Translations under genes and position numbers: made by a program
Shown here: positions 10,139-26,634 of the stretch, in pieces
Position numbering within the stretch: position 1 is the stretch's first letter
Layout: the number at the start of each line of letters is the position of its first letter
The notes under the pieces: model-generated
The model's input: only the letters and a program-made list of their open reading frames with translations
What the model was told of the DNA's origin: nothing
Database searches by the model: none
IMG/VR virus record: IMGVR_UViG_3300009081_000038
Location: 1-27,245 of that record
Length of the DNA stretch: 27,245 nt
From: a virus
Strand: one strand, 5' to 3'

Positions 10139-10382
10139 CGGACACCGTGAGAGCGCCGGATTCTGCAAGTGTGTCGCCGTAGAATGCCCGCAGCGCGACG
10201 ATAGACTCCGTCGACGGGCAAGCACCCTCGTTCTCCCAGACTGACAGCGAGGCAACGCTACAGCGCGTTTCACGAGCCACGTCGGGCAGACTCATGCCCA
10301 TGCTCTCACGGAGAGCCCGTAGGCGAGTGCCATCAAGCATCGTGCGGGCTCCGTTTTTTCGGTCGTACCAGGTGCGGGCCAT
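10128..10382 (-). CDS. XRE-family helix-turn-helix regulator, 84 aa
   Basis: ATG 10382 has GGAGA upstream. The product holds a clear Cro/C1-type HTH: LRALRESMGMSLPDVARETR followed by CSVASLSVWENEGACPSTES. Proteins of this size usually bind an operator as dimers and repress transcription. It sits after a strong hairpin at 10401-10426 that ends the DUF669 gene, so its expression may depend on terminator read-through. No integrase or divergent repressor pair was found, so a role in timing of early genes is more likely than lysogeny control. Its operator is unknown; the palindrome at 11704-11724 is one candidate. Confidence 0.85.
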   Translation of the reverse strand: MARTWYDRKNGARTMLDGTRLRALRESMGMSLPDVARETRCSVASLSVWENEGACPSTESIVALRAFYGDTLAESGALTVSDAE

Positions 10383-10400
10383 TGCGTTCTCCAAAGCAAA

Positions 10401-10426
10401 GCCCCGCACGGATCACCGTGCGGGGC
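10401..10426 (-). terminator. Strong hairpin between the DUF669 gene and the regulator gene
   Basis: GCCCCGCACGG and CCGTGCGGGGC form a perfect 11-bp stem with a 4-base loop. On the minus strand it begins nine bases after the DUF669 stop and is followed by TTTGCTTT, an imperfect T-run. It would terminate most leftward transcripts, allowing reduced expression of the regulator, resolvase and exonuclease downstream. Confidence 0.75.
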
Positions 10427-10434
10427 GATGGGCG

Positions 10435-10953
10435 TCATCCCTTGCGGGCCATAAATCCGGGCTTGCTCGTCGGAGCCGACGCGGCGGGCTTGCTGGCGGC
10501 GGCGACGGGCGCAGCGCCGGCGCGGGCCTTGAACGCCACGACGTCATTCGATGCATCGTAACCGTTGGCCGCAGGGCGCACCTTCAACTTGACAACGATC
10601 TGCGCTCCGACGCACGGCGACAGGCTCATGCCGGTGACGCCGCAAGCGTCGGCCAGCTCGGCAGATTGGCGCTTGCCGATATCCAGCATTTGCTGGCCCT
10701 TCTCGTCGGTGCGGATTGTGCGCAGCGTGATGCGCGTCCAGATCTTGCGGCCCCTGTGATCGCCGTCGTCGACGGTCAACTCGACATTGGCCTGAACGCT
10801 CTGCTCGTCGCGGGTCTTCTTCGCCTCGATTTTGCTGACGGTGACAGGGTAATCACCGGCAGGCAGCGGATCGAAGCTCGACGGGCGGCGCTCGACGCTG
10901 GCGACGTCGAAGTCAAGGGCAAGGGGGTCGTTATCGTTGGTCCAGTCAGACAT
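10435..10953 (-). CDS. DUF669 family single-stranded DNA-binding-like protein
   Basis: ATG 10953 is chosen for GAAGGAG at good spacing; the longer frame runs into the ATPase gene. The 172-residue product has the DUF669 pattern: an acidic N-terminus, PLPAGDYPVTVSKIEAKKT, then VQANVELTVDDGDHRGRKIW, and a helical IGKRQSAELADACGV block. A Lys/Ala/Pro-rich tail ends SKPGFMARKG. DUF669 genes are commonly paired with phage AAA ATPases of the Sak4 type and are thought to act as single-strand-binding proteins. The tail is basic rather than the acidic tip of bacterial SSB. It starts five bases after the ATPase stop. Confidence 0.85.
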   Translation of the reverse strand: MSDWTNDNDPLALDFDVASVERRPSSFDPLPAGDYPVTVSKIEAKKTRDEQSVQANVELTVDDGDHRGRKIWTRITLRTIRTDEKGQQMLDIGKRQSAELADACGVTGMSLSPCVGAQIVVKLKVRPAANGYDASNDVVAFKARAGAAPVAAASKPAASAPTSKPGFMARKG

Positions 10954-10957
10954 GATT

Positions 10958-11680
10958 TTACTCCTTCGTCGCGGAAACTGCCGCGCCAGCATGAGCCGCC
11001 ATCTTTGCCACAACGGCACCGAGGTCGGCAGGTTCGAGCGGGTCAAGAGCCCCGCTGCGGTCTTTGGCGACGCTTCGCGCATCACCGGAGGTCTGGAGGT
11101 AGCGCACGGCTGCCCGCTTGCCGTCGGGGTCGACTTCGTCGACGCACACAAGACGGAACACCTCATCAAAAAGGTAGGGGACGGCGTCGCCAAGCTTTGC
11201 GCCGGGCATCGAGATCCCGTAGGAGATCCGGCCCGTGGCGTCGTCCTTCACCTTGGCGAGTTTGGCGCTGAAATAGACGCCAATCGGCAGATCACGGAAG
11301 GCCCGCATCGCGGCGGTGACGCGCTCAATGACAGCGCCGTAAGCTTGGCGCGGATCGGTCACTTTCTTTTTCTCTGCGGTGAGGACAACCTCGGCAATCT
11401 CTGAAATGCTGTCCAGCGCGACCCAATCGTAGCCGTGGCCCTTGCTGGTCAAGTGCTTGTGCACGTTGATCAGGTCATCGACGGTGACAATCTCGACGAC
11501 GTCAAAGCGGTCATCTCCCGAGGCAAACGACAAGGACAGCAGGCCCGACTCTGCGGACACAATCAGGACGCGGCCCGGAAGGCTGCCGATAAGCGTCGTC
11601 TTGCCGATGCCACTGTCACCGTAAACCAGCACCTTGGGTGCGTGAGGCCGTATGGCTTGCGCCAGTTTCATGATCTGCAT
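10958..11680 (-). CDS. RecA-like AAA ATPase, Sak4-type recombination protein
   Basis: The 240-residue product has a Walker A motif GDSGIGKTT (21-29), a Walker B-like strand YDWVALDSISE, and the size and layout of phage AAA_24/Sak4 single-strand annealing ATPases. These RecA-core proteins promote annealing or strand exchange in phage recombination, usually with an SSB-like partner, which here is the next gene. ATG 11680 has GAGGAGAG just upstream. It is the first gene transcribed leftward from the divergent promoter region at 11699-11732. Assignment to the ATPase fold is secure; the Sak4 subtype rests on length and context. Confidence 0.85.
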   Translation of the reverse strand: MQIMKLAQAIRPHAPKVLVYGDSGIGKTTLIGSLPGRVLIVSAESGLLSLSFASGDDRFDVVEIVTVDDLINVHKHLTSKGHGYDWVALDSISEIAEVVLTAEKKKVTDPRQAYGAVIERVTAAMRAFRDLPIGVYFSAKLAKVKDDATGRISYGISMPGAKLGDAVPYLFDEVFRLVCVDEVDPDGKRAAVRYLQTSGDARSVAKDRSGALDPLEPADLGAVVAKMAAHAGAAVSATKE

Positions 11681-11698
11681 GTGCTCTCCTCTTGTGCC

Positions 11699-11732
11699 TT
11701 GACTTCTATCGGGGGCCGATAGAACGTGTCAA
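11699..11732. promoter_or_regulatory. Divergent promoter region with central palindrome
   Basis: Leftward: TTGACA (11732-11727, minus strand) with TAGAAG after 18 bases or ATAGAA after 17. Rightward: TTGACT (11699-11704) with TAGAAC after 15 bases, which is suboptimal. Between the -35 boxes lies the palindrome TTCTATCGG-GGG-CCGATAGAA (11704-11724), overlapping both -10 regions. A bound repressor could block both operons at once. Confidence 0.7.
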
Positions 11733-11754
11733 GCACAAAGGAGCAAGACAGATC

Positions 11755-13485
11755 ATGAAACTTCGGGACTACCAGCAAGAGGCAGTCGATGCGGTGTTTT
11801 CGTATTGGGAACGTGCGCCGTCGACGCCAGAGAAGCCAGCAAGCCCCCTTGTGGTGATGCCGACGGGGTCAGGGAAAAGCCCGACCTTGGGCGAGACGAC
11901 TGCGCGGCTTGTGCAGGATTTCGGGTGCCGCGTCGTGATCGCGACCCATCGGGCGGAGCTCATCATCCAGGATGCAAAGGCGGTGCGGTCGATCTGGCCG
12001 ATGGCCCCGGTCGGGATCTACAGCGCCGGGCTTGGACGAAAGGAGATCGAGCAGATCACGATCTGCGGTGTCCAATCGATCGTTCGGTCAACGTCAAGGC
12101 TCGGGCATGTCGACGTCGTGATCATCGACGAGGCGCATCTTTTGAGCCCTGAAGATGCGACGTCCTACCAGCGCATGATCGCAGACCTGCGAGCAGTCAA
12201 CCCTGACCTGCGGATCCTCGGGTACACCGCGACGCCGTACCGTCTCGGGCAGGGCTACTTGACTGAAGGGGACAGTGCGCTTTTCACGGCCGTGGCCTAT
12301 GACGTCGACGTGAAACGCCTCATCCGTGACGGGTGGCTTTCGCCTGTCGTGACGGGGTACGTCCGAGAGCAGATAGACCTATCCGACGTCGGCATCCGCA
12401 TGGGTGAGTTTGCGGCGAAAGATTTGGAGATGGCTTGCGACGTCGACAAGATCAACGGCATCGTCGCCGACGACGTCAAGGGTGCGCTAGATGGCGGGCG
12501 GACGTCGGCCATGATCTTTGGGACGTCGGTGGCCCACGCAAAGCGTCTGCGGAACGAGCTGCAGATCCGCGGCGTGTCCTGCGACGTGATTACCGGCGAG
12601 ACGGAGCGCGGACAGCGGGACGAAATCATCGGGCGATTCAAGGCGCGTCAACTTGCGTGTCTTGCGTCCTGCGACGTCCTGACGACTGGCTTCGACGCGC
12701 CTGTCGTCGACGTGCTGGCATTGGTCAGGCCGACCATGAGCCCTTCTCTCTACGTCCAAATGGTCGGGCGTGGGATGCGGCTTGCCGACGGAAAGACCGA
12801 TTGCCTCCTGCTTGACTACGGCGGCAACATCGCAAGGCATGGCCCCATCGACGACGTCAAGGTGAAGCCCAAGGGAAAGAAGAGCGACGGCGAAGCACCC
12901 ACTAAGACCTGCCCTCAGTGCCTTGCGCAGCAAGCTCCGGCGGTGCGGGTCTGCCTCCACTGTGGCTACGAGTGGCCCGCGCCAGAACGCAAGGCGAACG
13001 ACAAGGCCAGCAACCTGCCGGCGCTGTCGTTGGAGATCAAGCCCAAGGCTCCGCCCGTGCGTCACGACGTCGGCGCTGTCGAGTGGCGCAAGCACTACAA
13101 GGCCGGCGACGACAACGCTCCACCGACGCTGCGGATCGACTACTACCCGCTAGGTGGGCCGCTCGGGCTTGGGCGCAAGATCGTGTCTGAGTGGGTGTGC
13201 GTCGAGCATGAGGAAGGCTCGTTTGCGTGGCGCAAGGCGATGAGATGGTGGGAGGAGCACGTTGGCTGTCGCCTGCCAGAAAGCGTCGACGATGCCCTCG
13301 CCCTCCTCGACGACGGGCACATGCGGCCAGTGGTGGCTGTCGAGACGGAGAAAGACGGCAAGTGGGACCGCGTCGTCGCCATCCACCATGGCAAGCGCCG
13401 TGAGATTGATGACGATGGCGAGAGCGAGTCAGAGACTCAACCTGCCGATGGCGACAGTTTTGGAGAGGACGATCTGCCATGGTGA
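11755..13485 (+). CDS. Superfamily 2 DEAD/DEAH-box helicase with zinc finger
   Basis: ATG 11755 begins MKLRDYQQEAVDAV, the canonical Q-like start of this family, with AAAGGAG upstream. The 576-residue product shows motif I PTGSGKS, motif II DEAH (near 125), motif III TATPYR (near 160), and motif VI QMVGRGMR (near 350). A CPQC/CLHCGYEW zinc ribbon follows near 390. The fold is that of phage and UvrB-like DNA helicases that unwind DNA using ATP. A C-terminal domain of unknown type follows and ends in a very acidic tail, EDDLPW, resembling the tip of bacterial SSB. It is first in the rightward replication operon and overlaps the next gene by seven bases. Confidence 0.93.
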   Translation: MKLRDYQQEAVDAVFSYWERAPSTPEKPASPLVVMPTGSGKSPTLGETTARLVQDFGCRVVIATHRAELIIQDAKAVRSIWPMAPVGIYSAGLGRKEIEQITICGVQSIVRSTSRLGHVDVVIIDEAHLLSPEDATSYQRMIADLRAVNPDLRILGYTATPYRLGQGYLTEGDSALFTAVAYDVDVKRLIRDGWLSPVVTGYVREQIDLSDVGIRMGEFAAKDLEMACDVDKINGIVADDVKGALDGGRTSAMIFGTSVAHAKRLRNELQIRGVSCDVITGETERGQRDEIIGRFKARQLACLASCDVLTTGFDAPVVDVLALVRPTMSPSLYVQMVGRGMRLADGKTDCLLLDYGGNIARHGPIDDVKVKPKGKKSDGEAPTKTCPQCLAQQAPAVRVCLHCGYEWPAPERKANDKASNLPALSLEIKPKAPPVRHDVGAVEWRKHYKAGDDNAPPTLRIDYYPLGGPLGLGRKIVSEWVCVEHEEGSFAWRKAMRWWEEHVGCRLPESVDDALALLDDGHMRPVVAVETEKDGKWDRVVAIHHGKRREIDDDGESESETQPADGDSFGEDDLPW

Positions 13486-13730
13486 CTGACGAGCAGTTGA
13501 TTCAACTGAAGGACAGTGGTCTTCCAATGCAGGAGATTGCTTCGCAGACAGGGCTGCCCATCGGGTCTGTCAAGTCGAGGCTCTACCGGCTGAGGCACGG
13601 GCGATGGGCTGTCGGCAAGTGGATCAGGCTTGACGACGCCAAGCGGTTGATCCGTGAGGCATACGAGGCGGGCCAGTATGGGCTCGGCATTGAAGATCTG
13701 ATTGAAGAGTTGGGGAGGATTCAAAAGTGA
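13479..13730 (+). CDS. Small helix-turn-helix protein, 83 aa
   Basis: ATG 13479 overlaps the helicase stop. Residues about 5-45 (LIQLKDSGLPMQEIASQTGL then PIGSVKSRLYRLRHG) form a helix-turn-helix of the sigma-70 region 4/MarR-like tri-helical type. The C-terminal half is helical and acidic (RLIREAYEAGQYG). It could bind DNA at an origin or promoter or act as a helicase accessory factor. It is between the helicase and primase-polymerase genes and overlaps the latter by four bases, so it is coexpressed with the replication genes. Confidence 0.8.
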   Translation: MVTDEQLIQLKDSGLPMQEIASQTGLPIGSVKSRLYRLRHGRWAVGKWIRLDDAKRLIREAYEAGQYGLGIEDLIEELGRIQK

Positions 13731-14842
13731 CGACGACGATGACGAATCTTGAAGCTGCCCTGTGGTACGCAGAGCGCGGGCTTGCGGTGTTCCCTTGCTC
13801 GCCCGGCACGAAGATCCCTTTTGCGGGTAGCGCCGGGTGCAAAGACGCGACGACGGACGAGGCCACGATCCGCTCGTGGTGGGAGAAGACGCCAAGTGCG
13901 AACGTGGCGATTGCGACGGGCTCGGTGTCTGGCATCTACGTCGTCGACATTGACGCGGCGTCGTCGGAGATCATGCCGCGCCTGCCGGAGACGTGGATAG
14001 CAAGGACACGCGGCGGCGGATGGCACTACGTCTACGCGCTGCCGGAGGGTATGCGCCTACCCAACACAGCCAAGTCAAGCCCTAACGCTATCAGCCCCGA
14101 TGCTGACACGCGTGGCGAGGGCGGCTACATCGTGGCGTTCCCGTCTGTCGTCGAGGGCAAGGGCTATACATGGACGAATGATGTAGATCCGGTGCCGTTG
14201 CCGTCGTGGATCGTGGACAGGGTGAAGCCACGACAGCAGGCGATCACACTGACGCGCCAGACTTTTGCGCTCACTGCGACGTCGTGGGCAGAGACGGCGA
14301 TGCGGCAGGAAGTCGACGAGGTGGCGCGGACAGGAAAAGGCGGGCGCAACCATGCGCTGGTTCGTGCGGCTTTCAAGTTGGGCCAGATCTGCGGCGCGGG
14401 CCATCTGTCGTTCGGCGTAGCTGCGGACGCGCTCTACAGCGTGGCCCGTGGTTGGGAGGGAGAAAGCGAACGCAAGTCGAGGGGCACGATTGAACGTGGA
14501 CTGAAGGCTGGCGCGTCGCATCCTCGGAGCCCTGCCGACAAAGCGATCATGGAGTCTGACAGCGGCTACTACGTCGACGAGATCAACGCGCTGGCGATTG
14601 AGCCGGAAATCATCGTGACGCCGGAGAGGGCTAAGCCCAAGGGGCCGACGCCAGCCGAGCAGGACGCCGCACGTTGGGCAATGCTGGCCGACGTGAGGGC
14701 GCTGGGCGGGCTCTGTGACACGTTCTGCGGATGGGTGATCCGTGGGGCCGATCATCCGCAACCTGGACTCACCATCGCGGCGCTTCTGGCCCTCGGGTCG
14801 GCGATGGCTGGCCGTCGGCTTGTGTACCGCCGCTCGACGTAG
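13727..14842 (+). CDS. Primase-polymerase, N-terminal part of an interrupted primase-helicase
   Basis: The N-terminal domain matches the bifunctional primase/polymerase (Prim-Pol) family: ALWYAERGLAVFPC (11-24), GCKDATTD (37-44), the metal-binding VVDIDAA with Asp74 and Asp76, and GGGWHYVY with His100. These enzymes make primers and can extend DNA. After the domain comes a helical linker and then the start of a DUF3987-type helicase (ending ALGSAMAGRRLVYRRST), where the frame meets TAG at 14840-14842. The same frame stays open for 371 more codons and encodes the Walker A and the rest of the helicase. The stop is thus an internal amber codon in what should be one protein of about 747 residues. 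Confidence 0.85.
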   Translation: MTTTMTNLEAALWYAERGLAVFPCSPGTKIPFAGSAGCKDATTDEATIRSWWEKTPSANVAIATGSVSGIYVVDIDAASSEIMPRLPETWIARTRGGGWHYVYALPEGMRLPNTAKSSPNAISPDADTRGEGGYIVAFPSVVEGKGYTWTNDVDPVPLPSWIVDRVKPRQQAITLTRQTFALTATSWAETAMRQEVDEVARTGKGGRNHALVRAAFKLGQICGAGHLSFGVAADALYSVARGWEGESERKSRGTIERGLKAGASHPRSPADKAIMESDSGYYVDEINALAIEPEIIVTPERAKPKGPTPAEQDAARWAMLADVRALGGLCDTFCGWVIRGADHPQPGLTIAALLALGSAMAGRRLVYRRST

Positions 14843-14854
14843 AGGCTCGACGTC

Positions 14855-15970
14855 GTGTCCATGGCGTCGTCGGGCGAGGGCAAGAACCGTCCGCAGTCTT
14901 GTCTTTCAAGGGTCATTGACGAGTGCTGGCCAGCATTGCGCGGTCCAAACTCTTTCTCGTCGGGGCCTGCTTTCGTCGACGGCGTGAGGAAGGCTGTCGG
15001 CGCTGGCGTCGCAACGTGTCTTGTGCTTGACGAGTATGGCATGCAGCTCGGGAACATGATGGGACCAAGGGCGGCGACACACCGGCAGGACATCAAGCAG
15101 TCTCTGACGGAGCTGTCCACGAAGGGCACAGACAAATGGTCCCCGGCGGTGTCGCTCGTCAAAGGCGGCGGCAAACTCGACTTGATTGCGCCTGTCGTGA
15201 CGGTGCTTGGATCGACAACGCCGGAGAGCCTGCACAGTGTCCTGACGTCGGTCGACGTGGCGGACGGCTTTGTCGGTCGTCATGTGTGGATGCGCTCACA
15301 GTGGGTGCTGCCAGACTGGCAGCCGCCAGAGACGAGGCCAGACGACGATCTGCCGCTGGACGTTCGGTCGGCCGTGCTGGCGGTGCGTGAGCGTCATGAG
15401 GCATGGCACCTGGCCCTTGCGGTGACGGTCGACACCGGCGTTGATCAGCTTCGGCTCTATGACTCGGTCACGATGCCGGAAGAAGACGCGGCGCGTGACC
15501 TGTTGACGAGGTGCAAGATCGACGCAGACAAGGCGCGGCGCGATGGCACTCGGCAGGATGTGCCTCCAGCGGTGCTGGCCCGTCTGCCGGAGTTTGCCGG
15601 CCGGTTGGCGATGGTCCTTGCCGCTCTGGCGCAACCAGAAGCGGACGTGCCCGTCGTGACGGAGGATTGCGCCCGTGTGGCGGTGGCCTTGGCCGAAGAG
15701 TCGGCACGGGTCTTTGCCGGGAGTCTGGCGGCCAATCGTCGGGCATCGTGGGATGACCACGCGGCGCAATGTGAGCTTGTCCTGGGCGCTTTGCGGGCCT
15801 CGGGCGGGTCCATGGGCAGGTCGGACCTCTTGCGGGCCTGTAGAGCGCTCCCAGCGCGTCTGGTGGGCGAGATTGTCGACCGGCTTGCCGAAGAGGGGAC
15901 AATCGTGGTAGCAAAAGAGCCTACGGGCGGACGCCCACGCGAGATTTACGCGCTGCGTCAACAGGGATAA
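14855..15970 (+). CDS. DUF3987-type primase-helicase, C-terminal part after the amber codon
   Basis: In the same frame as the Prim-Pol part, the product starts near the P-loop ASSGEGKNRPQ and contains CLVLDEYG as a Walker B-like strand. It continues with VVTVLGSTTP and SVDVADGFVGRHVW, typical of DUF3987 helicases that form the motor half of phage primase-helicases. Possible re-initiation starts are GTG 14855 (AGAGG nine bases before) or ATG 14861, but both would remove the first beta strand of the ATPase core (RLDVV), so a separately translated product would probably be impaired. The C-terminus is winged-helix-like (GALRASGGSMGRSDLLRACR). Read-through, sequencing error or a nonsense mutation are all possible. 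Confidence 0.8.
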   Translation: MSMASSGEGKNRPQSCLSRVIDECWPALRGPNSFSSGPAFVDGVRKAVGAGVATCLVLDEYGMQLGNMMGPRAATHRQDIKQSLTELSTKGTDKWSPAVSLVKGGGKLDLIAPVVTVLGSTTPESLHSVLTSVDVADGFVGRHVWMRSQWVLPDWQPPETRPDDDLPLDVRSAVLAVRERHEAWHLALAVTVDTGVDQLRLYDSVTMPEEDAARDLLTRCKIDADKARRDGTRQDVPPAVLARLPEFAGRLAMVLAALAQPEADVPVVTEDCARVAVALAEESARVFAGSLAANRRASWDDHAAQCELVLGALRASGGSMGRSDLLRACRALPARLVGEIVDRLAEEGTIVVAKEPTGGRPREIYALRQQG

Positions 15971-16247
15971 TACTTACGCGGGAAAAAAGGGTGGCGGGTT
16001 CGGCGGAAGTCGGACCCGCTACTGCGTTTTGGGAAAGAAGGATCTAAAACAACGGAAGCCCCTATATATAAGGAGTTTTCTTAGGAGATCTCTTTACTCT
16101 CTGATCGATACATCAAGAAGGGCCTCACCTCCGCTCTTGCCCCGGCGACTGGCCCGTGCTACCCTCCCCCCACGTCACCCTGCTACCGTCTCTCGGCGGG
16201 TTGGCGAGCACCGGACACCCACCGGATTGCGACTGGATTCCGCCTGG
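15971..16247. other. Noncoding region with an AT-rich block
   Basis: No supported gene lies here. Bases about 16024-16118 are unusually AT-rich for this DNA, including TATATATAA at 16063-16071, the palindrome GAGATCTC at 16085-16092 and repeated AGGAG. This could be a promoter region or a replication origin next to the primase-helicase gene. The remainder is C-rich with no recognisable structure. Confidence 0.5.
15994..16019 (+). terminator. Hairpin after the primase-helicase gene
   Basis: GCGGGTTC and GGACCCGC form an 8-bp stem with one G-T pair, 24 bases after the stop. The following GTTTTGG is only a weak T-run, so it is a possible but leaky terminator. Confidence 0.45.
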
Positions 16248-16278
16248 ACCCCGCCTGCGCTGGCGGGGTTCTTTTTTG
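16248..16278 (+). terminator. Intrinsic terminator of the replication operon
   Basis: ACCCCGCC and GGCGGGGT form a perfect 8-bp stem with a 6-base loop, followed by TTCTTTTTT. This is a standard rho-independent terminator for the rightward transcript and insulates the next promoter. Confidence 0.88.
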
Positions 16279-16328
16279 ATCTGTCAGCGGGCCTGATCCG
16301 GCTTTGGGATGCCGCATGCACAGCATGC

Positions 16329-16357
16329 TTGACAGATGTGTGGAGTGCAGATAGACT
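16329..16357 (+). promoter_or_regulatory. Sigma-70-type promoter for the two middle genes
   Basis: TTGACA (16329-16334) and TAGACT (16352-16357) are separated by exactly 17 bases, with the shared extended element TGCTTGACA. Two GCATGC palindromes (16314-16319 and 16323-16328) lie directly upstream and could be operator half-sites. Transcription would begin near 16364, before the ribosome site of the 47-residue gene. Confidence 0.78.
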
Positions 16358-16398
16358 GATCTCACCGGGGCAGGGTGCTTCGGAAAGGGAGAGACAAG

Positions 16399-16542
16399 AT
16401 GCTAGACACCGACACCAAGCCTGCCGCGACCGTGATGGTCACCATCACCAACCCCGACGGCTCGGTTGAGTCGTTCTCCTCCACCCCCTCGGACGCCATG
16501 CTTGTGGCCCTCGACGACTGGCAATGGATCGCGGTCGACTGA
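16399..16542 (+). CDS. Small hypothetical protein, 47 aa
   Basis: ATG 16399 has GGGAGAGACA upstream. The 47-residue product is MLDTDTKPAATVMVTITNPD followed by a Ser/Thr-rich turn and a helical end, LVALDDWQWIAVD. It is acidic and has no membrane segment. It is the first gene after a strong promoter and just ahead of the late region, a position where phages often place regulators, but no DNA-binding motif is seen. Confidence 0.7.
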   Translation: MLDTDTKPAATVMVTITNPDGSVESFSSTPSDAMLVALDDWQWIAVD

Positions 16543-16568
16543 CCGCTTTCCATTGCGACCGATAAAGA

Positions 16569-16590
16569 GCCCGCAGCGCCAAATGCGGGC
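16569..16590 (+). promoter_or_regulatory. Hairpin between the two middle genes
   Basis: GCCCGCA and TGCGGGC form a perfect 7-bp stem with an 8-base loop. CTTCACTT follows, so there is no proper T-run. It may partially terminate or stabilise the message between the 47- and 120-residue genes. Confidence 0.5.
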
Positions 16591-16606
16591 CTTCACTTGG
16601 AGAGAC

Positions 16607-16969
16607 ATGACCGCCTACATCGTCTTTATCACAGCGGGCCAATACTCCGACCGGTCAACGGTTCCCCTTGTCGCCTGCTGTGACGAGCAGGTGGCGGACG
16701 CCGTTAAGGTCGAGGTGGAAGCCGAAATCAAGCGGCTGGGGGCCATCGCGGCGGCGTCAGACGGCGGCGGGTGTCATATCGCCGTCATCGGTGGGACCGT
16801 CGTCCTTGACACATGGTCCGCCGAGAACGAACCCGTGTGCGGCGTGATGGCGACCCCACGGCTCAGAGGGTTCAGCTGGCGCCCGCCATACCCCGACGGC
16901 ACCCGCTACGGCGGTGAGGTCGAGGTGGTGATCGTCGAGATCCCGAGCATTGGCCCCGTTTTCACCTGA
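16607..16969 (+). CDS. Hypothetical protein, 120 aa, upstream of the late promoter
   Basis: ATG 16607 has GGAGAGAC immediately upstream; the longer frame would cross the previous gene. The product starts MTAYIVFITAGQYSDRSTVP and has beta strands alternating with a helix (DAVKVEVEAEIKRLGAIAAA). It ends in a proline-rich then Val/Ile-rich strand. A CC pair occurs near residue 23 (VACCDEQ). No family was recognised. Its place directly before a late promoter and leader terminator is where lambdoid phages carry the antiterminator Q, but only position supports such a role. Confidence 0.75.
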   Translation: MTAYIVFITAGQYSDRSTVPLVACCDEQVADAVKVEVEAEIKRLGAIAAASDGGGCHIAVIGGTVVLDTWSAENEPVCGVMATPRLRGFSWRPPYPDGTRYGGEVEVVIVEIPSIGPVFT

Positions 16970-16977
16970 CCCCACTC

Positions 16978-17002
16978 GCCCCGGTTCGCCGGGGCTTTTT
17001 TG
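16978..17002 (+). terminator. Intrinsic terminator with TTCG loop
   Basis: GCCCCGG-TTCG-CCGGGGC followed by TTTTTTG is a textbook rho-independent terminator with a stable tetraloop. It begins nine bases after the 120-residue gene stops and ends the middle transcript. Confidence 0.93.
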
Positions 17003-17031
17003 TTGCCTCCATCGCTACCACGCGCTAGACA
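17003..17031 (+). promoter_or_regulatory. Candidate late promoter
   Basis: TTGCCT (17003-17008) and TAGACA (17026-17031) are 17 bases apart; the -10 box resembles TAGACT and TAGGCT of the other promoters, and the -35 is a weaker match. CCATCG (17009-17014) and CGATGG (17039-17044) are inverted repeats flanking the -10 region. It is the only promoter seen before the packaging genes, but a terminator lies between it and the first of them. Confidence 0.55.
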
Positions 17032-17064
17032 ACGCCCACGATGGAGCCCTGACAAGGCAGATGG

Positions 17065-17097
17065 ACCCCCGGCATGGTGTCGGGGGTTTGTTTTTTT
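17065..17097 (+). terminator. Leader terminator or attenuator before the late operon
   Basis: ACCCCCGGCA and TGTCGGGGGT form a 10-bp stem with one G-T pair and a TGG loop, followed by a long T-run interrupted once. It is a strong intrinsic terminator about 30 bases after the predicted late start and 27 bases before the first packaging gene, so late transcripts must read through it. Confidence 0.88.
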
Positions 17098-17123
17098 GTG
17101 CCAATCTGGCATGATCGTCGCGT

Positions 17124-17612
17124 ATGAACTACCCCCGCAAGCCGGTGTCCGGCAAGCAGGCGGGGCGCTTACTCCTGCCGCATTGGCTGCGGGAAGCCTC
17201 CGCCGAGATTCTTCGGATCGAATATGCGGTCGGCGTTGCCCGTCCAGAGGCGGCATGTGCGCCCGGCGAAGACGCCGATGATCGCGTGATCGCCTTGGTG
17301 GCGGACGCATCGCCAGAACTCCGCCAGAAGTGCCGGGCTTTCGTGCTGGGGCACACCCTCGCTCCCCACGCGAAATGGGCTCCTGAGCCAACTGAGGACG
17401 CCACAGAGGCCAAGGCCGGGCCAACGGTCGAGGAACTGGAAAACCATCTCCGCGAGCTGGCCGAGTCGGGCGACCGCGCCGCCATCCTCGCCATGTTGGC
17501 GGCCCTCGACCCCGCCCGCTACGGGCCACCTGGACGCACGGTCGCCGACGCGCCCGACACTGTGGACGTGGTGGACTGGGTTCCGGCGGTGGTCACGCCG
17601 GCCGGGAAATAG
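17124..17612 (+). CDS. Candidate small terminase subunit, 162 aa
   Basis: The product begins MNYPRKPVSGKQAGRLLLPH and is followed by helical segments (WLREASAEILRIEYAVG and ENHLRELAESGDRAAILAML), then a Pro/Asp-rich tail. No clear ribosome site precedes ATG 17124. It sits six bases before the large terminase start, which is the normal position of the small subunit that recognises packaging sites. The length is usual for that role. The sequence has no diagnostic motif, so the assignment depends on position and helical content. Confidence 0.6.
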   Translation: MNYPRKPVSGKQAGRLLLPHWLREASAEILRIEYAVGVARPEAACAPGEDADDRVIALVADASPELRQKCRAFVLGHTLAPHAKWAPEPTEDATEAKAGPTVEELENHLRELAESGDRAAILAMLAALDPARYGPPGRTVADAPDTVDVVDWVPAVVTPAGK

Positions 17613-17618
17613 CGCACC

Positions 17619-18932
17619 GTGCTGAATATTCAGCGCGGCGCGGCGACCCTACTGCCCCATCAGCTTGCGCTTGTGGGTGACAGGACGTCGCGGATCAAGG
17701 TCCTGCAGGGCGGCTACCGCAGCGGGAAAACGGTCGCCGGTGTCGCGGCCGTCGTCGACATGGCGTTCCGGTCTGGTGGGTTCCCGATCCTCGTCGTCGA
17801 GCCTACCTACCGCATGGTCGTCGACGTCTTCGTGGCGACGGCGAAGAGGATGCTGGATGCGTGGAAGCTGCCCTATACATGGCACAAAACGGACAAGATC
17901 CTGACCATCGGACGGCGCAAGCAGGTGGAGATCCTCTGCCGGTCGGCCGACGAGCCCCGCTCCCTTGAAGGCATCACCGCTGGCGGGCTGCTCGTCGACG
18001 AGTGGGAACTCTGCGACGTCGAGGCCCTGACGACGGCGATGGCCCGTGTGAGCATGGGGCCGTGTCAGCAAATCGTGCTGACGGGCACCCCTGAAGGCTA
18101 CGGCCCTGCCTATGAGATGATCCTCGCCAAGCCGAGCCCCGACGTGCGGCAGTGGTCGGTGACGTCGTCGGCGAATAGCTATCTGTCGTCGACGTATGTG
18201 GAATCGATGCGTCAACGCATGGACGACAGCACGGCGTCAGAGAAACTTGACGGCGTCCGCACGGCCAAGGGCGGGCGCGTCTATGGTAGATTCGACCGGC
18301 GAGTGCATTGCGTGTCGCCCGTCGTCGTGAGGGGCACCATTCAGATCGCGTGTGACTTCAACGTGCGCTACATGCATTGGATCGTCGTCGAGACGGACCA
18401 GTCGCAACGCACGACACACGTCGTCGGCGAGGTGATCAAAGAGGGCGGCACGACGACGGACGAACATGCTGAGCGAGTGGCACAGTGGATCGCGCACTAC
18501 CTCACCCGCACAAGAGGGAGGCACTACACGCGAGACGACGTGTACCAGATGAGACTACAGGCGTTCGTCGACGCCAGCGGCACGGCGCTTCGTTCCACGT
18601 CGACGAAGAGCGACGTCGCGCTGTTGACGCAGGCCGGGTTCAGGCCAATCCACGGCAACGCAAACCCGCCCGTCAAGGACAGGGTCAACACGCTGAATGT
18701 GCTCTTCCGTGATCGGCGCGTGACCGTCGATGCCAGCGCGGCTCCCGTGCTCACTCGGGCGCTGGAAACGCAGGCACTGGACAAGCACGGCGACCCCGAC
18801 AAGCGCGGCGATATCGATCACGGTATCGACGCCCTCGGTTACCTCTGTCACTGGCAATGGCCGGTGCATCGTCCACGGGCGAACCAGACAACGCCAGGTG
18901 ACGCACTGACCGACGAATGGGGGCGAGTCTGA
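17619..18932 (+). CDS. terL: Terminase large subunit (packaging ATPase/nuclease)
   Basis: The 437-residue product has the packaging ATPase Walker A motif GGYRSGKT (31-38), Walker B LLVDEWE (near 125) and the coupling segment VLTGTPEGYG. In the C-terminal RNase H-like nuclease, ACDFN carries the first metal-binding Asp, and DIDHGIDALGY near 400 the last. It pumps DNA into the procapsid and cuts concatemers. GTG 17619 follows the upstream TAG by six bases. The length and motif order are complete, so it should be functional. This gene places the phage among tailed viruses. Confidence 0.95.
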   Translation: MLNIQRGAATLLPHQLALVGDRTSRIKVLQGGYRSGKTVAGVAAVVDMAFRSGGFPILVVEPTYRMVVDVFVATAKRMLDAWKLPYTWHKTDKILTIGRRKQVEILCRSADEPRSLEGITAGGLLVDEWELCDVEALTTAMARVSMGPCQQIVLTGTPEGYGPAYEMILAKPSPDVRQWSVTSSANSYLSSTYVESMRQRMDDSTASEKLDGVRTAKGGRVYGRFDRRVHCVSPVVVRGTIQIACDFNVRYMHWIVVETDQSQRTTHVVGEVIKEGGTTTDEHAERVAQWIAHYLTRTRGRHYTRDDVYQMRLQAFVDASGTALRSTSTKSDVALLTQAGFRPIHGNANPPVKDRVNTLNVLFRDRRVTVDASAAPVLTRALETQALDKHGDPDKRGDIDHGIDALGYLCHWQWPVHRPRANQTTPGDALTDEWGRV

Positions 18933-18974
18933 CCGGGTGTTTCCGCTTGACTTTTGGCGTGGTAGGGTTGCGGC

Positions 18975-20522
18975 ATGATTTCCTACAACGCCGCAAGCGA
19001 TGCCGTGATCGAGACAATCCGACAGCAGGCCGGCGCATGGATGCCCGACCAACTGTCGGCGCTACTCGACGCTGGCCGCAAGACGCGACCCGCTGACTAC
19101 GACAGCGTCGTGAAGGGGCTGGCGGTACGCTACTCGGGCGACCAGGCCAGCGTGATTCGCGACGCCCTGAAAAAGGCCTATCCCCGCACCTACCAGCAAC
19201 TTCCGATTGACCCCGTCAACTGGCTTCGATTTTTTGCGAGGCAGGACAGCGGCGTCTACGCCACGCCAGCGGACCGCACCCTTGTTGACGACGAGGGCGA
19301 GGCGCTTGACGAAGAGGACGAGCGCCTTGTCGCTTTCCGCCGTGGGCTTGACGAGGCCGGCATCGACGTCGTCATGCCAGAGATGGAACGGCGCTGTCAC
19401 GCTGGCGTCCGTGCGTCGTTTGCGATGGTCGGCTGGCGCAAGATCGGCGACATCGGCAAGCTCGTCTGCCAGATCTATTGGACGCACGACGTCGTCACGC
19501 TGGCCCATCCATCGGCCCCCGATGACCCCGACGCGCTGTGGCTTTGCGCGATTAAGCAGGCCACGCCGTCGTCGGCGTCGCCGCTGTGGTGGGTGTGGTC
19601 GAGGGAGTTTGTCGAGGATGATGCTGGCAATCTCGTTTCGTTCGGCGCGTGGTCGCATCGGCGCGTGTCGGAGGACGGCAAGACTGCGACGGCGTCGGAG
19701 GCATATGAGGGCCGCTTCCCCGGCGCGTTCCTGCGCATCGAGCCCGGCGCTGGCGGTATCTGGCCCGATCCCGACCGTGACGTCGTCGCCAACGTCGACC
19801 GGCTGAACGTGTCGAGGTCCAATCGGCAGCACGTCGTCGATATGCAGGCCCATGCGACGTGGGTCTACAGCGGACTCACTCGCGAAACGAGCGAGCTGGT
19901 AGGCGGTCCAGGTGTCGTGTTGCAGATCGGGTCCGGCGAGACTCTGCAAGCGCAGACTGCCGGCGCGGACCATGCTGCCATCGAGGCCAGCGCGACTCGT
20001 GATTTGCAAGAACTCGGCGTGTCGCGTGGCAACAGCCCCGACGCCTACGCCGTTGAGCCCGGTGCGCCGCAGTCCGGCGTGTCGCGCATGATCGCGAACG
20101 CTCCGCACGATCAGCGCGTCGCGGAAAGCAGGCCCATCTTCAAGGCGTTCGAGGAAAACCAACTCCTGTCCATCGTCGTCGACGTGCTGCGCTTGTTTGA
20201 TCCACAGAGCCCCGCTGAGTTTGGCGACGTAAAGCCGATGGTCACGCTGTCGATGGGCAAGACCTACGAGGCCGATCAAGAGAAGCAGGATCGTGTGTTG
20301 GCGTTGAAGGAAGCCGGGCTCGTCGATGAGGCTGACGCTCGCGTGATGCTGGGCCTGAGTGCCGACCGTGCGACTGCGGAGGCGTACCTTGAGCAGATGA
20401 AGGCCGTCCGTGCGCCACAGGTCAGTCTGCCCGGCGCACTGGCGGGCTCTCCGTTCACGGCGAGACGCGAGACAACCGTCGTCGAGGAAGAGGACGAAGA
20501 CGAGGATGAGGCCACGTCGTGA
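18975..20522 (+). CDS. Portal protein
   Basis: The 515-residue product follows the terminase gene, as portals do. The middle contains ARQDSGVYATPADRTLVDDE, a WWVWSREF segment, and the region GPGVVLQIGSGETLQAQTAG, with long helices afterwards (for example MIANAPHDQRVAESRPIFK and an acidic tail EEEDEDEDEATS). This resembles SPP1-type portal proteins. It would form the dodecameric ring through which DNA enters and leaves the head. ATG 18975 has only a weak AGGG site. The stop overlaps the next gene (GTGA). Identification rests on size, order and general pattern; no single motif is diagnostic. Confidence 0.85.
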   Translation: MISYNAASDAVIETIRQQAGAWMPDQLSALLDAGRKTRPADYDSVVKGLAVRYSGDQASVIRDALKKAYPRTYQQLPIDPVNWLRFFARQDSGVYATPADRTLVDDEGEALDEEDERLVAFRRGLDEAGIDVVMPEMERRCHAGVRASFAMVGWRKIGDIGKLVCQIYWTHDVVTLAHPSAPDDPDALWLCAIKQATPSSASPLWWVWSREFVEDDAGNLVSFGAWSHRRVSEDGKTATASEAYEGRFPGAFLRIEPGAGGIWPDPDRDVVANVDRLNVSRSNRQHVVDMQAHATWVYSGLTRETSELVGGPGVVLQIGSGETLQAQTAGADHAAIEASATRDLQELGVSRGNSPDAYAVEPGAPQSGVSRMIANAPHDQRVAESRPIFKAFEENQLLSIVVDVLRLFDPQSPAEFGDVKPMVTLSMGKTYEADQEKQDRVLALKEAGLVDEADARVMLGLSADRATAEAYLEQMKAVRAPQVSLPGALAGSPFTARRETTVVEEEDEDEDEATS

Positions 20523-21334
20523 GCGGGGCGGATGCTGCCGGCGTCGTCGCCGATGCCGCCGTCGAAGACCTGCGACGTCTCGAGGTGGCACTTGAGCGCG
20601 ACCTTCTGCGAATCCTCTTGTCCCTCGACACCGTCCCCGGAGAGGACAGCCTCGTCCGCCGACAAGCGCAGACTTCAGCGGCTGTCCTCTCGCAGATACG
20701 TCGCCGACTGGAAGCCGAGGGGGAAACGGTACGCGGTGTCGTCGGACAACGCGCCGTCGAGGCCGTCGCCGCTGTCTTGGGTGCGCCTCCTTCGGCGTTA
20801 TCGGTCGACGCGAGACGAGAACTAGACGCCATCGTCAATGGCCAAGTCGCCGACGTCGTCGCGGTGTTCAGGTTGGCTCGTGAGGAGATGCGCGACGCCG
20901 TGTCTCGCGGCATCACGTCCAGTGGGTCGCTTGCCGACGTCATCGAGGAAGTGCGGGCGCGACTGTCGACGACGTATGTCCGTGCGTCGGCCGCAGTCGA
21001 TGCCGCCATCATGGCGGTCGGTCGACGGTCCGTTATCTCTGCGGCCCGTGAGGTCGAGGCGGAACTCGACCTCGTCTACGTCTACGTCGGGCCACGCGAC
21101 GCGAAGAACCGGCCCTTCTGCAGAACGTGGGTCGGCAAGGCAGTCACCGATCCCGCCCGCCTCGACAACGGACAGGGCCTCCCTGCCGACGACTATTGCG
21201 GCGGGTACAACTGCCGGCATAGCTGGGCACCGACGACGGTGGAGACGGCGGTCCGTGAAGGGATCGAGATTTATCGGCCCGATGGATCAAGGCTCATTAT
21301 CGACGCTGAGACGATGGCTATGCAACGGAGGTGA
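20519..21334 (+). CDS. Minor head protein, MuF/SPP1 gp7-like
   Basis: The 271-residue product is helical for most of its length and ends in the typical MuF-type C-terminal block. An Arg/Cys region (RPFCRTWVGKAVTDPARL) is followed by LPADDYCGGYNCRHSWAPTT, in which Cys, Asp and His residues are conserved in phage head morphogenesis proteins. Such proteins are internal capsid components packed in a few copies near the portal and may be ejected with DNA. GTG 20519 overlaps the portal stop. Its position after the portal agrees with the family. No toxin domain is fused. Confidence 0.88.
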   Translation: MSGADAAGVVADAAVEDLRRLEVALERDLLRILLSLDTVPGEDSLVRRQAQTSAAVLSQIRRRLEAEGETVRGVVGQRAVEAVAAVLGAPPSALSVDARRELDAIVNGQVADVVAVFRLAREEMRDAVSRGITSSGSLADVIEEVRARLSTTYVRASAAVDAAIMAVGRRSVISAAREVEAELDLVYVYVGPRDAKNRPFCRTWVGKAVTDPARLDNGQGLPADDYCGGYNCRHSWAPTTVETAVREGIEIYRPDGSRLIIDAETMAMQRR

Positions 21335-21338
21335 CGAC

Positions 21339-21950
21339 GTGGGAATCACAACCAAACGGAGCGGCACCCCGGTCAAGTTTGACCCCGAGAAAGCAGCCAA
21401 GGTGATCGGTGCCTTTGTCCCCGGCGCGATCCTGCGACGCACGGATCAGGGCATCTCGTCGACGGGGCAAGCGTTTGCCAGCTACTCGACGCAGTACCGA
21501 CGACAGCTACAGCGCATGGGCGAGGATCAGAAGATAGACCTGCGCTTGACCGGCGGACTCATGAACTCCATCAAGGTCCGCGAAACGCGCATTACCGGGA
21601 CCGGCGTCGAGGTCGTCATCGCGCCAGACACGGGGTCGAGCAGCCAGGTCCGTGCGCCGTCAGAAATCAGGGCGCTCCGTCGTGCTGGCCTTGTCGAAGG
21701 GCGGTTCGGCGAGACAGGCATCAGCAAGACCCTGAGACGTGGCGAGGCCCGTCAACTTGAACGCGACCTCAAGCGCGAATCAGGCCAACGACAAATCAAG
21801 ACCGGCGAACAGGGACCGCCACACAACGTGCTGGGCTACTGGATCCACCACGGCACCTCGACGACGCCAGCGCGTCCGTTCATGGGCCTGACGCCAGATC
21901 AAGAGCGCGAACTGAACGTGCTGCTTGGCAAGGCGAAGGTCTTCGGTTAG
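21339..21950 (+). CDS. Virion morphogenesis protein, Mu gpG-like
   Basis: GTG 21339 has GGAGG at good spacing and lies eight bases after the MuF gene start-stop site. The 203-residue product includes QYRRQLQRMGED, LTGGLMNSIKVRE and a C-terminal HHGTSTTPARPFMGLTPDQE. The PARPFMGL ending is characteristic of phage virion morphogenesis/tail completion proteins (Mu gpG, P2 gpS). These proteins assist head-tail joining. The family call is based on this pattern and on its place after the MuF-like gene. Confidence 0.75.
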   Translation: MGITTKRSGTPVKFDPEKAAKVIGAFVPGAILRRTDQGISSTGQAFASYSTQYRRQLQRMGEDQKIDLRLTGGLMNSIKVRETRITGTGVEVVIAPDTGSSSQVRAPSEIRALRRAGLVEGRFGETGISKTLRRGEARQLERDLKRESGQRQIKTGEQGPPHNVLGYWIHHGTSTTPARPFMGLTPDQERELNVLLGKAKVFG

Positions 21951-21973
21951 ACCCGCTCATGGCCTCAGCTCGC

Positions 21974-22213
21974 CTAGCCCCCGGCTCCGCATGGTGCGGT
22001 GACCGGGGGCGCGTTTTTGCGCAGCACTTCGGCGCGTCGCACGATCACCCCATAGAGCGCCGTCCGTTCTGGCGTGTTGGGCAAGCGACACACAATCGAC
22101 AGCGCAGCGTCAAGGTCGGCCAGCGTCTCGGCCAGCAGAGCCAACCCGGCCTCCCGTTGGCGCTTGACTCGGCCGAGCTGGGCGTGGGCGCGAGCAATTG
22201 GATCGTGAGGCAT
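21974..22213 (-). CDS. Possible minus-strand gene inside the late operon, 79 aa
   Basis: ATG 22213 to TAG 21974 encodes MPHDPIARAHAQLGRVKRQR followed by GLALLAETLADLDAALSIVC, which has a natural helical amphipathic pattern and lacks the Arg/Pro/Ser excess of shadow frames. No plus-strand gene occupies this interval. A perfect TATAAT lies upstream on the minus strand (22258-22253) but without a good -35 box, and no clear ribosome site is seen. Its 3' end overlaps the terminator at 21977-22018. It would be a small separately expressed gene inserted between structural genes. Confidence 0.5.
   Translation of the reverse strand: MPHDPIARAHAQLGRVKRQREAGLALLAETLADLDAALSIVCRLPNTPERTALYGVIVRRAEVLRKNAPPVTAPCGAGG
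21977..22018 (+). terminator. Intrinsic terminator within the structural operon
   Basis: GCCCCCGG and CCGGGGGC enclose an inner CCGCA-TGG-TGCGG hairpin, forming a long two-part stem followed by GCGTTTTT. It begins 27 bases after the gpG-like stop. It should reduce plus-strand expression of downstream structural genes unless antitermination operates, or another promoter lies after it. Confidence 0.8.
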
Positions 22214-22267
22214 GGCCCACGCTGCATGGGGTAGCGCCCGGACGTCAACTGCATTATAGTGCAGGCC

Positions 22268-23173
22268 ATGCAGCGCGTGCTGGTCGGCTCCACAGACACG
22301 ATCCTGTCGTATCCGCGCCTGTCGACGGATGGCGGTGTCTCGACCGGCGTTCCCTCGTCGGCAACGGCGAGACGCATCCCGTCGCAGTCTCCCGATGCTC
22401 TGGGGGCCTACGTCGCCGCTACGGTCGACCCGCTGTCGACGACGACGCAAGGCGCGGTGCCGGAAGGTGCCGATAGTCTCCCGCTCGCGGCGTCGGTCGC
22501 CATCGTCGCCGGCCGGCGCTATCTCGTGACGGACTCGTCCAGCGCCCGCCCGGTGGTGGTTGTCGCGGCCCGTAGTGGCACCCTGTCGACTCTGTGGCTC
22601 GCTGAGCCCCTGCCCTGCGACCTCGGCCATGCGTCGACTGTGAGCGGTCTGGCGGTGTCTGTGGCCCTGACGGCAGCACAGACCATCGAGCCCGGCGCGG
22701 GTTATGTGCTCTTCCGCGCCACGGTCGACGGCGTTGTGCGTGAATGGGACGAGTCGTTTCGTGTCGTCCGGCGCATCACGTCGATTGCGCTGTCGCCGAC
22801 AGAGCTAACGCAGTCCTACCCCGTCGTGCGGCAGATTGCGTCATCGTCAGACCTCACCCTCGAGGAGGCCATTCAGGCATCATGGCGGATGGTGCTTGTT
22901 CCCGCGCTTGCGGCGCGTGGCATCCTCGACGAGGACGTGCTCACCGATGACGTGCTTGTGCCGATGCATGCTGCCGCCACGGTGGTCCACCTCGCCCGCC
23001 AGTGGCCAGCCGCCCCGTCGGAATTCGTGTCGCGACTTGAAGCTAGCTACGAGCAGATCAAGCAGACCACCTACGACCGTATCGACCTCATCACCCGCTC
23101 GCAGGACGAGGTCACGCCGGAGATTCCGACGCCGGGTTCGCAGGGTCCGCGCTTCATGAGGATCTCACGGTGA
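22268..23173 (+). CDS. Structural protein, connector-like, 301 aa
   Basis: ATG 22268 is preferred; GTG 22259 in frame is an alternative and neither has a strong ribosome site. The N-terminal half is beta-rich (DSLPLAASVAIVAGRRYLVT and SSARPVVVVAARSGTLSTLW). The C-terminal half is helical (LTLEEAIQASWRMVLVPALA, then PMHAAATVVHLARQW). This beta-helical layout plus position after MuF and gpG-like genes fits a head completion/connector or head-tail joining protein. No family was recognised with certainty. The stop overlaps the next gene (GTGA). Confidence 0.78.
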   Translation: MQRVLVGSTDTILSYPRLSTDGGVSTGVPSSATARRIPSQSPDALGAYVAATVDPLSTTTQGAVPEGADSLPLAASVAIVAGRRYLVTDSSSARPVVVVAARSGTLSTLWLAEPLPCDLGHASTVSGLAVSVALTAAQTIEPGAGYVLFRATVDGVVREWDESFRVVRRITSIALSPTELTQSYPVVRQIASSSDLTLEEAIQASWRMVLVPALAARGILDEDVLTDDVLVPMHAAATVVHLARQWPAAPSEFVSRLEASYEQIKQTTYDRIDLITRSQDEVTPEIPTPGSQGPRFMRISR

Positions 23174-23622
23174 CGTGGCAGGATGCCCGCCGCGCCCTTG
23201 TGGCGATCCCCGGCGGCATCACCCCTGCCGTCGTCTCGCGTGGGCTCCCGTCGCGTTTTACGCACGATGTCGCGGGCCATGACGAAACGGTCGGTACGCA
23301 GTCGCGCCGATGGTGGGGGCGCGTGTTGTCGGGCGCAGCCGAGGGGCCATACCAGGTGCAGCAGACCCGGCATCGGCTGACGTGGGAAATCGTCGTCGAG
23401 TACGTCGACAGCGTCGGCAACACGAGCGCCATCGATGAGGCCATCCCGACCGACGCCGCGCAACTTGCGGCGGCATTCGCCCTCGGGTCCAACTGGGACC
23501 GCGCTACGTCTGGCATCGTCGCTGTCACGCCAGCAGGGACCGACGTAGCGCCCTACACTGTGGAGCAGGTGAGCGGTGCCCGCCGCCTGCGAATGAATCT
23601 TGAAGTGAGGTACAGCACATGA
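23170..23622 (+). CDS. Head-tail or tail-terminator-like protein, 150 aa
   Basis: The GTG start overlaps the preceding TGA and the stop overlaps the next ATG (ATGA at 23619-23622). The product is mixed alpha/beta with a conserved-looking RWWGRVLSGAAEGPYQVQQ segment and a strand region HRLTWEIVVEYVDS. It ends with RRLRMNLEVRYST, typical of a final beta strand in tail terminators. Its size and place just before the tail-tube-like gene fit that role. No motif proves it. Confidence 0.65.
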   Translation: MTWQDARRALVAIPGGITPAVVSRGLPSRFTHDVAGHDETVGTQSRRWWGRVLSGAAEGPYQVQQTRHRLTWEIVVEYVDSVGNTSAIDEAIPTDAAQLAAAFALGSNWDRATSGIVAVTPAGTDVAPYTVEQVSGARRLRMNLEVRYST

Positions 23623-24848
23623 CCGACGTCGCTCGCTTGTCCACGTTGCGCTACGGCCTCCACACGAACGCCTTCACGTTCACCGGCACGCCGACGCTCG
23701 TGCCGCTCCGTCTCACCGACGACGGCGCGTCGTTCCTTCCGCGCAACCGTGCGCCGATTGCGCGGTCGCTGCGGTCGCTGTCGGGCCGGCGCTACTCGCA
23801 TGTCCGTGGTGTGCAAGACCTCGCCGATATCTCCGTGGCGACGGAGATGCGCGGCGTCAACGCCAACACCGGCGCGGCTGTCACCGACTGGGAGGCGAAG
23901 ATGGAGCAAGGCTACCTGCTCGCCTCGCTCTTCGGCGCTGTCGCTCCGGCGACGACGGGCGTTGCGCCGACTGTCGCTGCAAGCGGTCACACGCCAGCGT
24001 CGGGAATCATTGCCGTCGTCGGCACGACCACCGCGAACGGGCAGGTTATCGCCTTCGCTTCGTCGGCGGGCTTGCAGATGGGTCGCATCGCCAGCGGTGG
24101 CGGAACCACGACGCTCACCCTCGACCATCCCTACAGCGGCACCCCGACGAGCGGAGCCACTGTCTTCCGCAACGCGGTCTACACCGTCGCTGACGCCGTC
24201 ACGCACCACGTCCATGCGATGTTTGCCGCAGAGGGCGAGGACTGGCGGCGCGACTACTTCGGCTGTATGCCGATGAGCCTTGCGCTTGCCCTGCCGAATG
24301 CCGGTCTTGTCGGCATGACCTCCGTGTTCTCGCCGACGTCGTTCAGCGACGTTGCCGAGGCCAACCCGGCCCACGCCGAGCCCGTGTCGGGCAACCCCAT
24401 CGTCGTCGACGCTTGCCGTATGTGGTTCGCCGGCAACGACGTCATCGCCCGCGACTTGACGATCAACTACAGCGCGGCGACGACGCCTCGTGTTGCGTCG
24501 ACGCGCACGAACGGTCGTGTCGGTGGCGTGAGCAGCACTGGCGACGGCAAGACCTTCACGATGGAATTCAGCGTCTACCTCGGCGACGCCAACCTCGCTG
24601 GCGAGCTGCAGGACAGCGCGGGTTCACCGACGCTGAACGACCTCATCGGCGACAGCGACGCCGCTGGCGACGTGTCCGTGACCCGCAAGGTGTCACTCCA
24701 AGTCGGCACCGAAATCGGGGCCGTCATGTATGCCTACATGCCTGAGGCTGATTGCGTGGTCACCACGCAGCACGTCGACGGCCTCACCGTTGCTCGCGTC
24801 GTTGCCACCGGCACCGGCGCTCTTCCTGCTATCCTCTCTGTGGGGTGA
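23619..24848 (+). CDS. Tail-tube-like structural protein, 409 aa
   Basis: The product has the general pattern of tail tube proteins. The N-terminal half includes SVATEMRGVNANTGAAVTDW and a Thr/Gly/Ala-rich central domain that may be an inserted Ig-like or variable domain. The C-terminal half has ARDLTINYSAATTPR, KTFTMEFSVYLGDAN and AVMYAYMPEADC, as in siphophage tube subunits. This would make the tail a tube polymer, although no tape measure gene was found. The ATG overlaps the upstream TGA. Alternative: another virion scaffold or shell protein. Confidence 0.6.
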   Translation: MTDVARLSTLRYGLHTNAFTFTGTPTLVPLRLTDDGASFLPRNRAPIARSLRSLSGRRYSHVRGVQDLADISVATEMRGVNANTGAAVTDWEAKMEQGYLLASLFGAVAPATTGVAPTVAASGHTPASGIIAVVGTTTANGQVIAFASSAGLQMGRIASGGGTTTLTLDHPYSGTPTSGATVFRNAVYTVADAVTHHVHAMFAAEGEDWRRDYFGCMPMSLALALPNAGLVGMTSVFSPTSFSDVAEANPAHAEPVSGNPIVVDACRMWFAGNDVIARDLTINYSAATTPRVASTRTNGRVGGVSSTGDGKTFTMEFSVYLGDANLAGELQDSAGSPTLNDLIGDSDAAGDVSVTRKVSLQVGTEIGAVMYAYMPEADCVVTTQHVDGLTVARVVATGTGALPAILSVG

Positions 24849-24852
24849 CACC

Positions 24853-25475: not shown

Positions 25476-25487
25476 GAGGACGACGAC

Positions 25488-26612: not shown

Positions 26613-26634
26613 TCTGACGTAGGAGGTCGAGGCC

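Follow-up and report, generated by a model that had tools for sequence, protein, structure and literature searches.

In phage lambda, a Q-type protein is encoded just 5' of the late promoter, and the pR'-tR' pair comes with the 6S RNA leader. A nut site consists of boxA followed by a boxB hairpin of ∼5 bp with a GNRA-like pentaloop, and N is a small arginine-rich protein. The boxB loop of phage P22 is GACAA (PMC12550061), and in Xanthomonas phage Xp10 the p7 protein carries the host RNA polymerase past intrinsic terminators ahead of the late genes (PMC6624301). In Thermus phage P23-45, extended −10 middle and late promoters are distinguished from −10/−35 promoters, with gp39, which also antiterminates, having the lesser effect on the extended −10 kind (PMC7403470); the middle and late mRNAs of phiYS40 are reported to be leaderless (PMC3594737).

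We analyzed a viral record of 27,245 bases, of IMG/VR type and with open ends (hereafter the window; features lie on the + strand unless stated otherwise). As in lambda pR'-tR', a promoter, a short leader RNA, and a strong terminator stand directly before the late genes, the promoter of the window being weak by consensus. On the same strand, 5' of this leader, lie helicase, primase, and DUF3987 genes, followed by an intergenic stretch that carries two small genes. The first packaging gene (17124–17612; 162 aa; start without SD) is assigned as the small terminase, terS, by position only, having no family match; TerL, the terminase large subunit (17619–18932), was identified by family searches. 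Close and distant relatives were collected by TerL searches, and further ones by leader patterns (loci numbered with the prefix L). No matches were returned by a DNA search of 15500–18500 against annotated phages or by a search of Rfam, and TerL found no relative, and hence no host, among 84,980 bacterial and archaeal genomes. The TerL of L016 and L017 is recombinant, its C-terminal half matching the window TerL and its N-terminal half coming from another lineage. The window also encodes a Mom-like DNA modification protein (6741–7382, − strand; phrog_1384, 3.7e-48) and, in its tail/lysis part, a patatin-like phospholipase (1868–2716). Between helicase and primase lies an 83-aa protein with a sigma-70 region 4 match (13479–13730; Pfam 1.8e-6) that most relatives lack; considered as a late regulator, it was set aside, being present among the loci compared only in L016 and L060.

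Terminators and the leader island

A strict scan of the whole window yielded forward terminators only at 16246–16271, 16978–16995, and 17060–17092, compared with an average of 0.05 for each strand in shuffled sequence. Two of these three are the terminators proposed in the earlier note (16978–17002 and 17065–17097), which are thus real; the third, an intrinsic terminator after the DUF3987 gene (16246–16277) that would insulate the late side, had been overlooked and is kept in L003, L004, L005, L009, L010, and L022. The terminator at 16978–17001 (GCCCCGG-UUCG-CCGGGGC) combines seven GC pairs with a UUCG loop and T6, and one like it is present in L004 and L010. The leader terminator (17060–17097) has a long stem, 15–16 bp in total, with a CCCCCGGCATGGTGTCGGGGG core at 17066–17086 and an invariant CAUGGUG loop.

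The same loop recurs at an internal late boundary, in a terminator-like hairpin at 21977–22019; the structure reported there (21977–22018) exists and folds well (z −3.5). Hairpins in which a CATGGTG loop is flanked by five or more further pairs occupy 24 non-redundant contexts; nearly every one stands ahead of terS or at this internal boundary, and other CANNNTG heptamers rarely lie within such hairpins. We rejected the explanation that such terminators are a habit of the host, as a pattern scan of the 84,980 genomes turned up 43 hits, scattered over unrelated phyla and without enrichment in any lineage. Other hairpin loops also repeat before terS, namely CTCACRG and CAATTCYG (L064, L065, L069; L054, L055, L057, L062, L071, L077), as if each clade kept its own terminator loop at this place. 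An insertion (∼22023–22230) that separates the internal terminator from the start codon at 22268, and that is absent from L003, L004, L005, L009, and L013, contains a small leftward ORF (21974–22213, − strand).

The leader aligns as an island (16996–17115) at 85–94% identity in L003, L004, L005, L009, and L010 and at ∼89% in L016, and it is also found in L022, L028–L030, L032, L058, and L059. Promoter, small hairpin, and terminator recur together as one conserved island in ∼10 related viral contigs, and the terminator at 16978–17001 precedes it; this supports a conserved unit of promoter, leader, and terminator that is shielded from transcription entering from upstream. The leader promoter itself (17003–17031; TTGCCT-17-TAGACA) fared less evenly. 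Its match is weak (7/12, with the final T of the −10 hexamer at 17026 missing), and with 263 sites on the + strand at least as good, the match alone is at chance level; its conserved position and the better hexamers standing there in two distant loci (TTGACC-17-TAGCCT in L078 and TGGACA-17-TAGGCT in L081) back it. Seven loci (L006–L008, L064, L067, L069, and L070) have no leader promoter, yet keep the terminator and the start-site promoter described below. The inverted repeat CCATCG (17009)/CGATGG (17039), suggested earlier as a regulator site, is broken in L003 and L016, and we rejected it as an operator because it is not conserved among relatives.

The predicted leader RNA is ∼60 nt long (17038–17097), with its start placed by the spacing from the −10 hexamer and its extent backed by structure and covariation. 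Across 11 leaders, including that of the distant L078, the RNA would form a 3-bp hairpin with an invariant CUGACAA loop (GCC-CUGACAA-GGC, 17046–17058; boxB-like, with one pair compensated in L016) followed by the long terminator stem with its invariant CAUGGUG loop, and 98.9% of pair cells are standard. The helices contain five pairs with double changes, a number reached in none of 500 shuffles, although relatedness inflates such counts. The covarying hairpin stem thus supports the predicted leader RNA. Its conservation calls for a function and exceeds what a useless by-product would show, a point that counts against the separate-unit model set out below. Two further candidates in this stretch were discarded: a mini-ORF (ATG-GAG-CCC-TGA) is broken by 1-nt length differences among relatives, and a GACAAG motif in L081 was judged a coincidence of the 5' arm of the terminator.

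The small-gene cassette

The two small ORFs upstream of the leader, which the earlier note had placed in the position of lambda Q, both exist and encode acidic proteins of 47 aa (16399–16542) and 120 aa (16607–16969). Neither has a match in Pfam or PHROG searches, and none of the tests made identified the 47-aa protein as a homologue of Q. A stricter promoter scan of 10000–27245 passed a single promoter, TTGACA-17-TAGACT (16329–16357; 10/12), which precedes the two genes and was missed in the earlier note; its counterparts (TTGACA/G-16/17-TAGA(A/G)T) occur in L004, L010, L016, L006, and L030. The small genes are absent from L003, L005, L009, and L022, where the leader directly follows the 16246 terminator, and in L004, L010, L016, and L030 other small ORFs take their place while the leader stays. 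Relatives of the 120-aa protein are encoded in L066 between TerL and the next gene (1277–1627) and in L065 on the opposite strand (4135–4398); such differing late and early-side positions mark a mobile small gene. A pattern scan of viral contigs gave no relative of this protein, nor did phages, and its single-sequence AlphaFold2 model (pLDDT 40.6) was too poor for a structure search. Since the small genes are absent, replaced, or relocated while the leader stays, their pattern is that of a moron cassette and not of a Q gene: judged by these comparisons, the two genes are a transferable cassette with its own promoter and terminator. Having no family match, being acidic, and being absent or replaced in close relatives that keep the leader, they do not qualify as counterparts of Q.

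Promoter-like sequences at late start codons

Promoter-like sequences, missed in the earlier note, lie at the starts of the 17124 (terS), 18975, and 22268 genes. When we counted −10-like hexamers 5–8 nt before the start codon, one was present at 21 of 22 loci for terS (2.7 expected), at 22/22 for the 18975 gene (1.4 expected), and at 13/16 for the 22268 gene (1.6 expected), with the proviso that the loci are related and the counts not independent. An SD-like sequence, present in most other genes of the window, was found before these genes at 1/22, 4/22, and 0/16 loci, respectively.

The predicted terS promoter (17088–17115), identified by alignment and motif counts, consists of TTGTTT at 17088, a 16-nt spacer, and CATGAT at 17110, with the TG of an extended −10 at 17107–17108; its −35 falls within the T tract of the leader terminator. 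In the window this promoter reaches only a modest 7/12, and 8 nt separate its −10 from the ATG, so that the mRNA may carry 1–3 leader bases. Aligned at the start codon, the terS upstream regions of almost all divergent members display TTG-16/18-extended −10, 5–9 nt before ATG or GTG, with the extended TG in 17/20 and TTG at the −35 position in 16/20. The features of the leaderless extended −10 kind, that is, a −10 near the start codon, a TG extension, and no SD, are therefore found together. The spacer holds the inverted repeat TGCCAATCTGGCA (17099–17111), a possible regulator site: TGCCA-3/5 nt-TGGCA spans the terS promoter spacer, and the 3-nt form occurs in 29 copies in the loci compared (redundant loci counted) versus 0.8 expected.

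The predicted promoter of the 18975 gene (18960–18974; TG-G-TAGGGT, 6 nt, ATG) is conserved as TAGnnT or similar in 22/22 loci, and that of the 22268 gene (22249–22267) is the palindrome CTGCATTATAGTGCAG around TATAGT, 7 nt before the ATG, conserved in most members. In L078, a palindrome of the latter type also precedes the 18975 homologue. Such a palindromic promoter, CTGCANTAKANTGCAG, precedes late genes that differ from member to member (22249–22264 in the window; ∼1833–1850 and ∼4856–4874 in L078) and may represent a late promoter module that can move. The cassette promoters belong to the −10/−35 kind, and the late promoters mostly to the extended −10 kind.

Since each of the three genes has a conserved −10 at its start codon and is hardly ever preceded by an SD, neither terminator requires antitermination. 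This holds in particular for the internal terminator, for which antitermination had been thought necessary: the 22268 gene after it has its own conserved −10 and no SD, and its start-site promoter is retained in L006 and L064, which lack the internal terminator.

Organization of the late genes and role of the leader

From the terminators, their conservation, the covariation, the −10 hexamers at start codons, the lack of SD, and the mobility of the small genes, all read directly in the sequence, we infer that the late genes probably form separate, leaderless or nearly leaderless transcription units insulated by terminators, together with the start sites, timing, and regulator of these units and the function of the leader RNA. 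The promoter of each late unit would overlap the start codon of its first gene, so that the mRNA has few leader bases or none, and terminators with strong hairpins would block transcription arriving from upstream. At 17088–17123, an extended −10 promoter whose spacer holds an inverted-repeat operator would start the packaging unit just past the leader terminator, and equivalents of this promoter would serve the 18975 and 22268 genes. The leader (17003–17097) would be a promoter-RNA-terminator element yielding mostly terminated RNA of ∼60 nt. Most probably, this RNA is either an independent small RNA or a side product of attenuation, and read-through to the late genes may occur as a secondary route. 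Both the leaders found without small genes and the phages that lack the leader promoter while keeping terminator and start-site promoter favor separate units.

Compatible with this organization, though rather unlikely as a specific role, is a leader that forms a dedicated gene for a small RNA, which would act in trans on targets of the phage or of its host and whose 3' end would be the terminator. Its own promoter position, the covarying two-hairpin structure and terminator shared with the distant L078, and its occurrence independently of its neighbors fit such a gene, against which count its length of just ∼60 nt and its place, always directly before terS.

We consider an antitermination switch unlikely. 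According to this explanation, transcripts from the leader promoter would stop at 17060–17097 at the early stage, and at the late stage a phage factor would let them pass by acting either on the leader RNA with its nut-like hairpin GCCCUGACAAGGC or, in the manner of Q, p7, or gp39, on RNA polymerase. The order of promoter, conserved hairpin, terminator, and late genes matches nut systems, the leader is strongly conserved, and its hairpin, invariant in the loop and compensated in the stem, lies between promoter and terminator and shares GACAA with the P22 boxB loop. A nut-like role is therefore possible by analogy, but where a lambdoid boxB has 5 bp and a pentaloop, the window has a 3-bp stem and a 7-nt loop, in a single perfect copy; the boxA-like stretch, judged by eye, is unconvincing (only 7/12 and missing in L078), and no N-like arginine-rich protein was found on looking at the two acidic small proteins. 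Xp10 p7 provides a precedent for passage through intrinsic terminators ahead of late genes, which the window has too; unlike Xp10, the window has its own promoters after the terminators, and no p7 relative was found among the proteins scanned. Nor is there a Q family match or a conserved gene in the Q position, and many relatives that keep the rest lack the leader. The start-site promoter downstream of the terminator argues against late mRNA starting at the leader promoter, and terS has no SD for a long mRNA. With what appears to be its own promoter at the first codon, the packaging gene does not need a lambda-type read-through switch, and the Q-like switch suggested at the outset, already weakened by the mobility of the cassette genes, is not upheld. 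About as unlikely is a leader RNA that serves a non-lambdoid phage group as a nut-like element of minimal size, in which a phage factor reading the CUGACAA hairpin and/or the CAUGGUG loop would co-ordinate read-through with the leaderless, operator-bearing late promoters. Finally, it is highly improbable that terminase binds the CAUGGUG hairpin region in DNA form as a packaging (cos/pac) site, for while this region adjoins terS and its long inverted repeat is kept across ∼50% TerL divergence, a second copy lies within the late operon (21977–22019), the loop differs or is missing there in several relatives, and the G-U pairs and T tract fit RNA.

Separate units with start-site promoters would instead recall P23-45 and phiYS40, in that the late promoters of the window are mostly extended −10 and predicted to be leaderless, while the cassette ones are −10/−35. 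These are different phages with very likely a different host, and it is the group of the window that has palindromes resembling operators around the −10; the likeness is one of mode of working, not of family membership. If the separate-unit model is right, an uncultivated phage group divides its late region into successive units that are separate and nearly leaderless, in place of one long antiterminated operon, with palindromic sites around the −10 and shared-loop terminators at unit boundaries. The model supplies exact positions for 5'-end mapping and cautions that a promoter-terminator leader before terminase genes is not always a Q switch; if right, it would make this group a sequence-predicted counterpart to Thermus phage late control.
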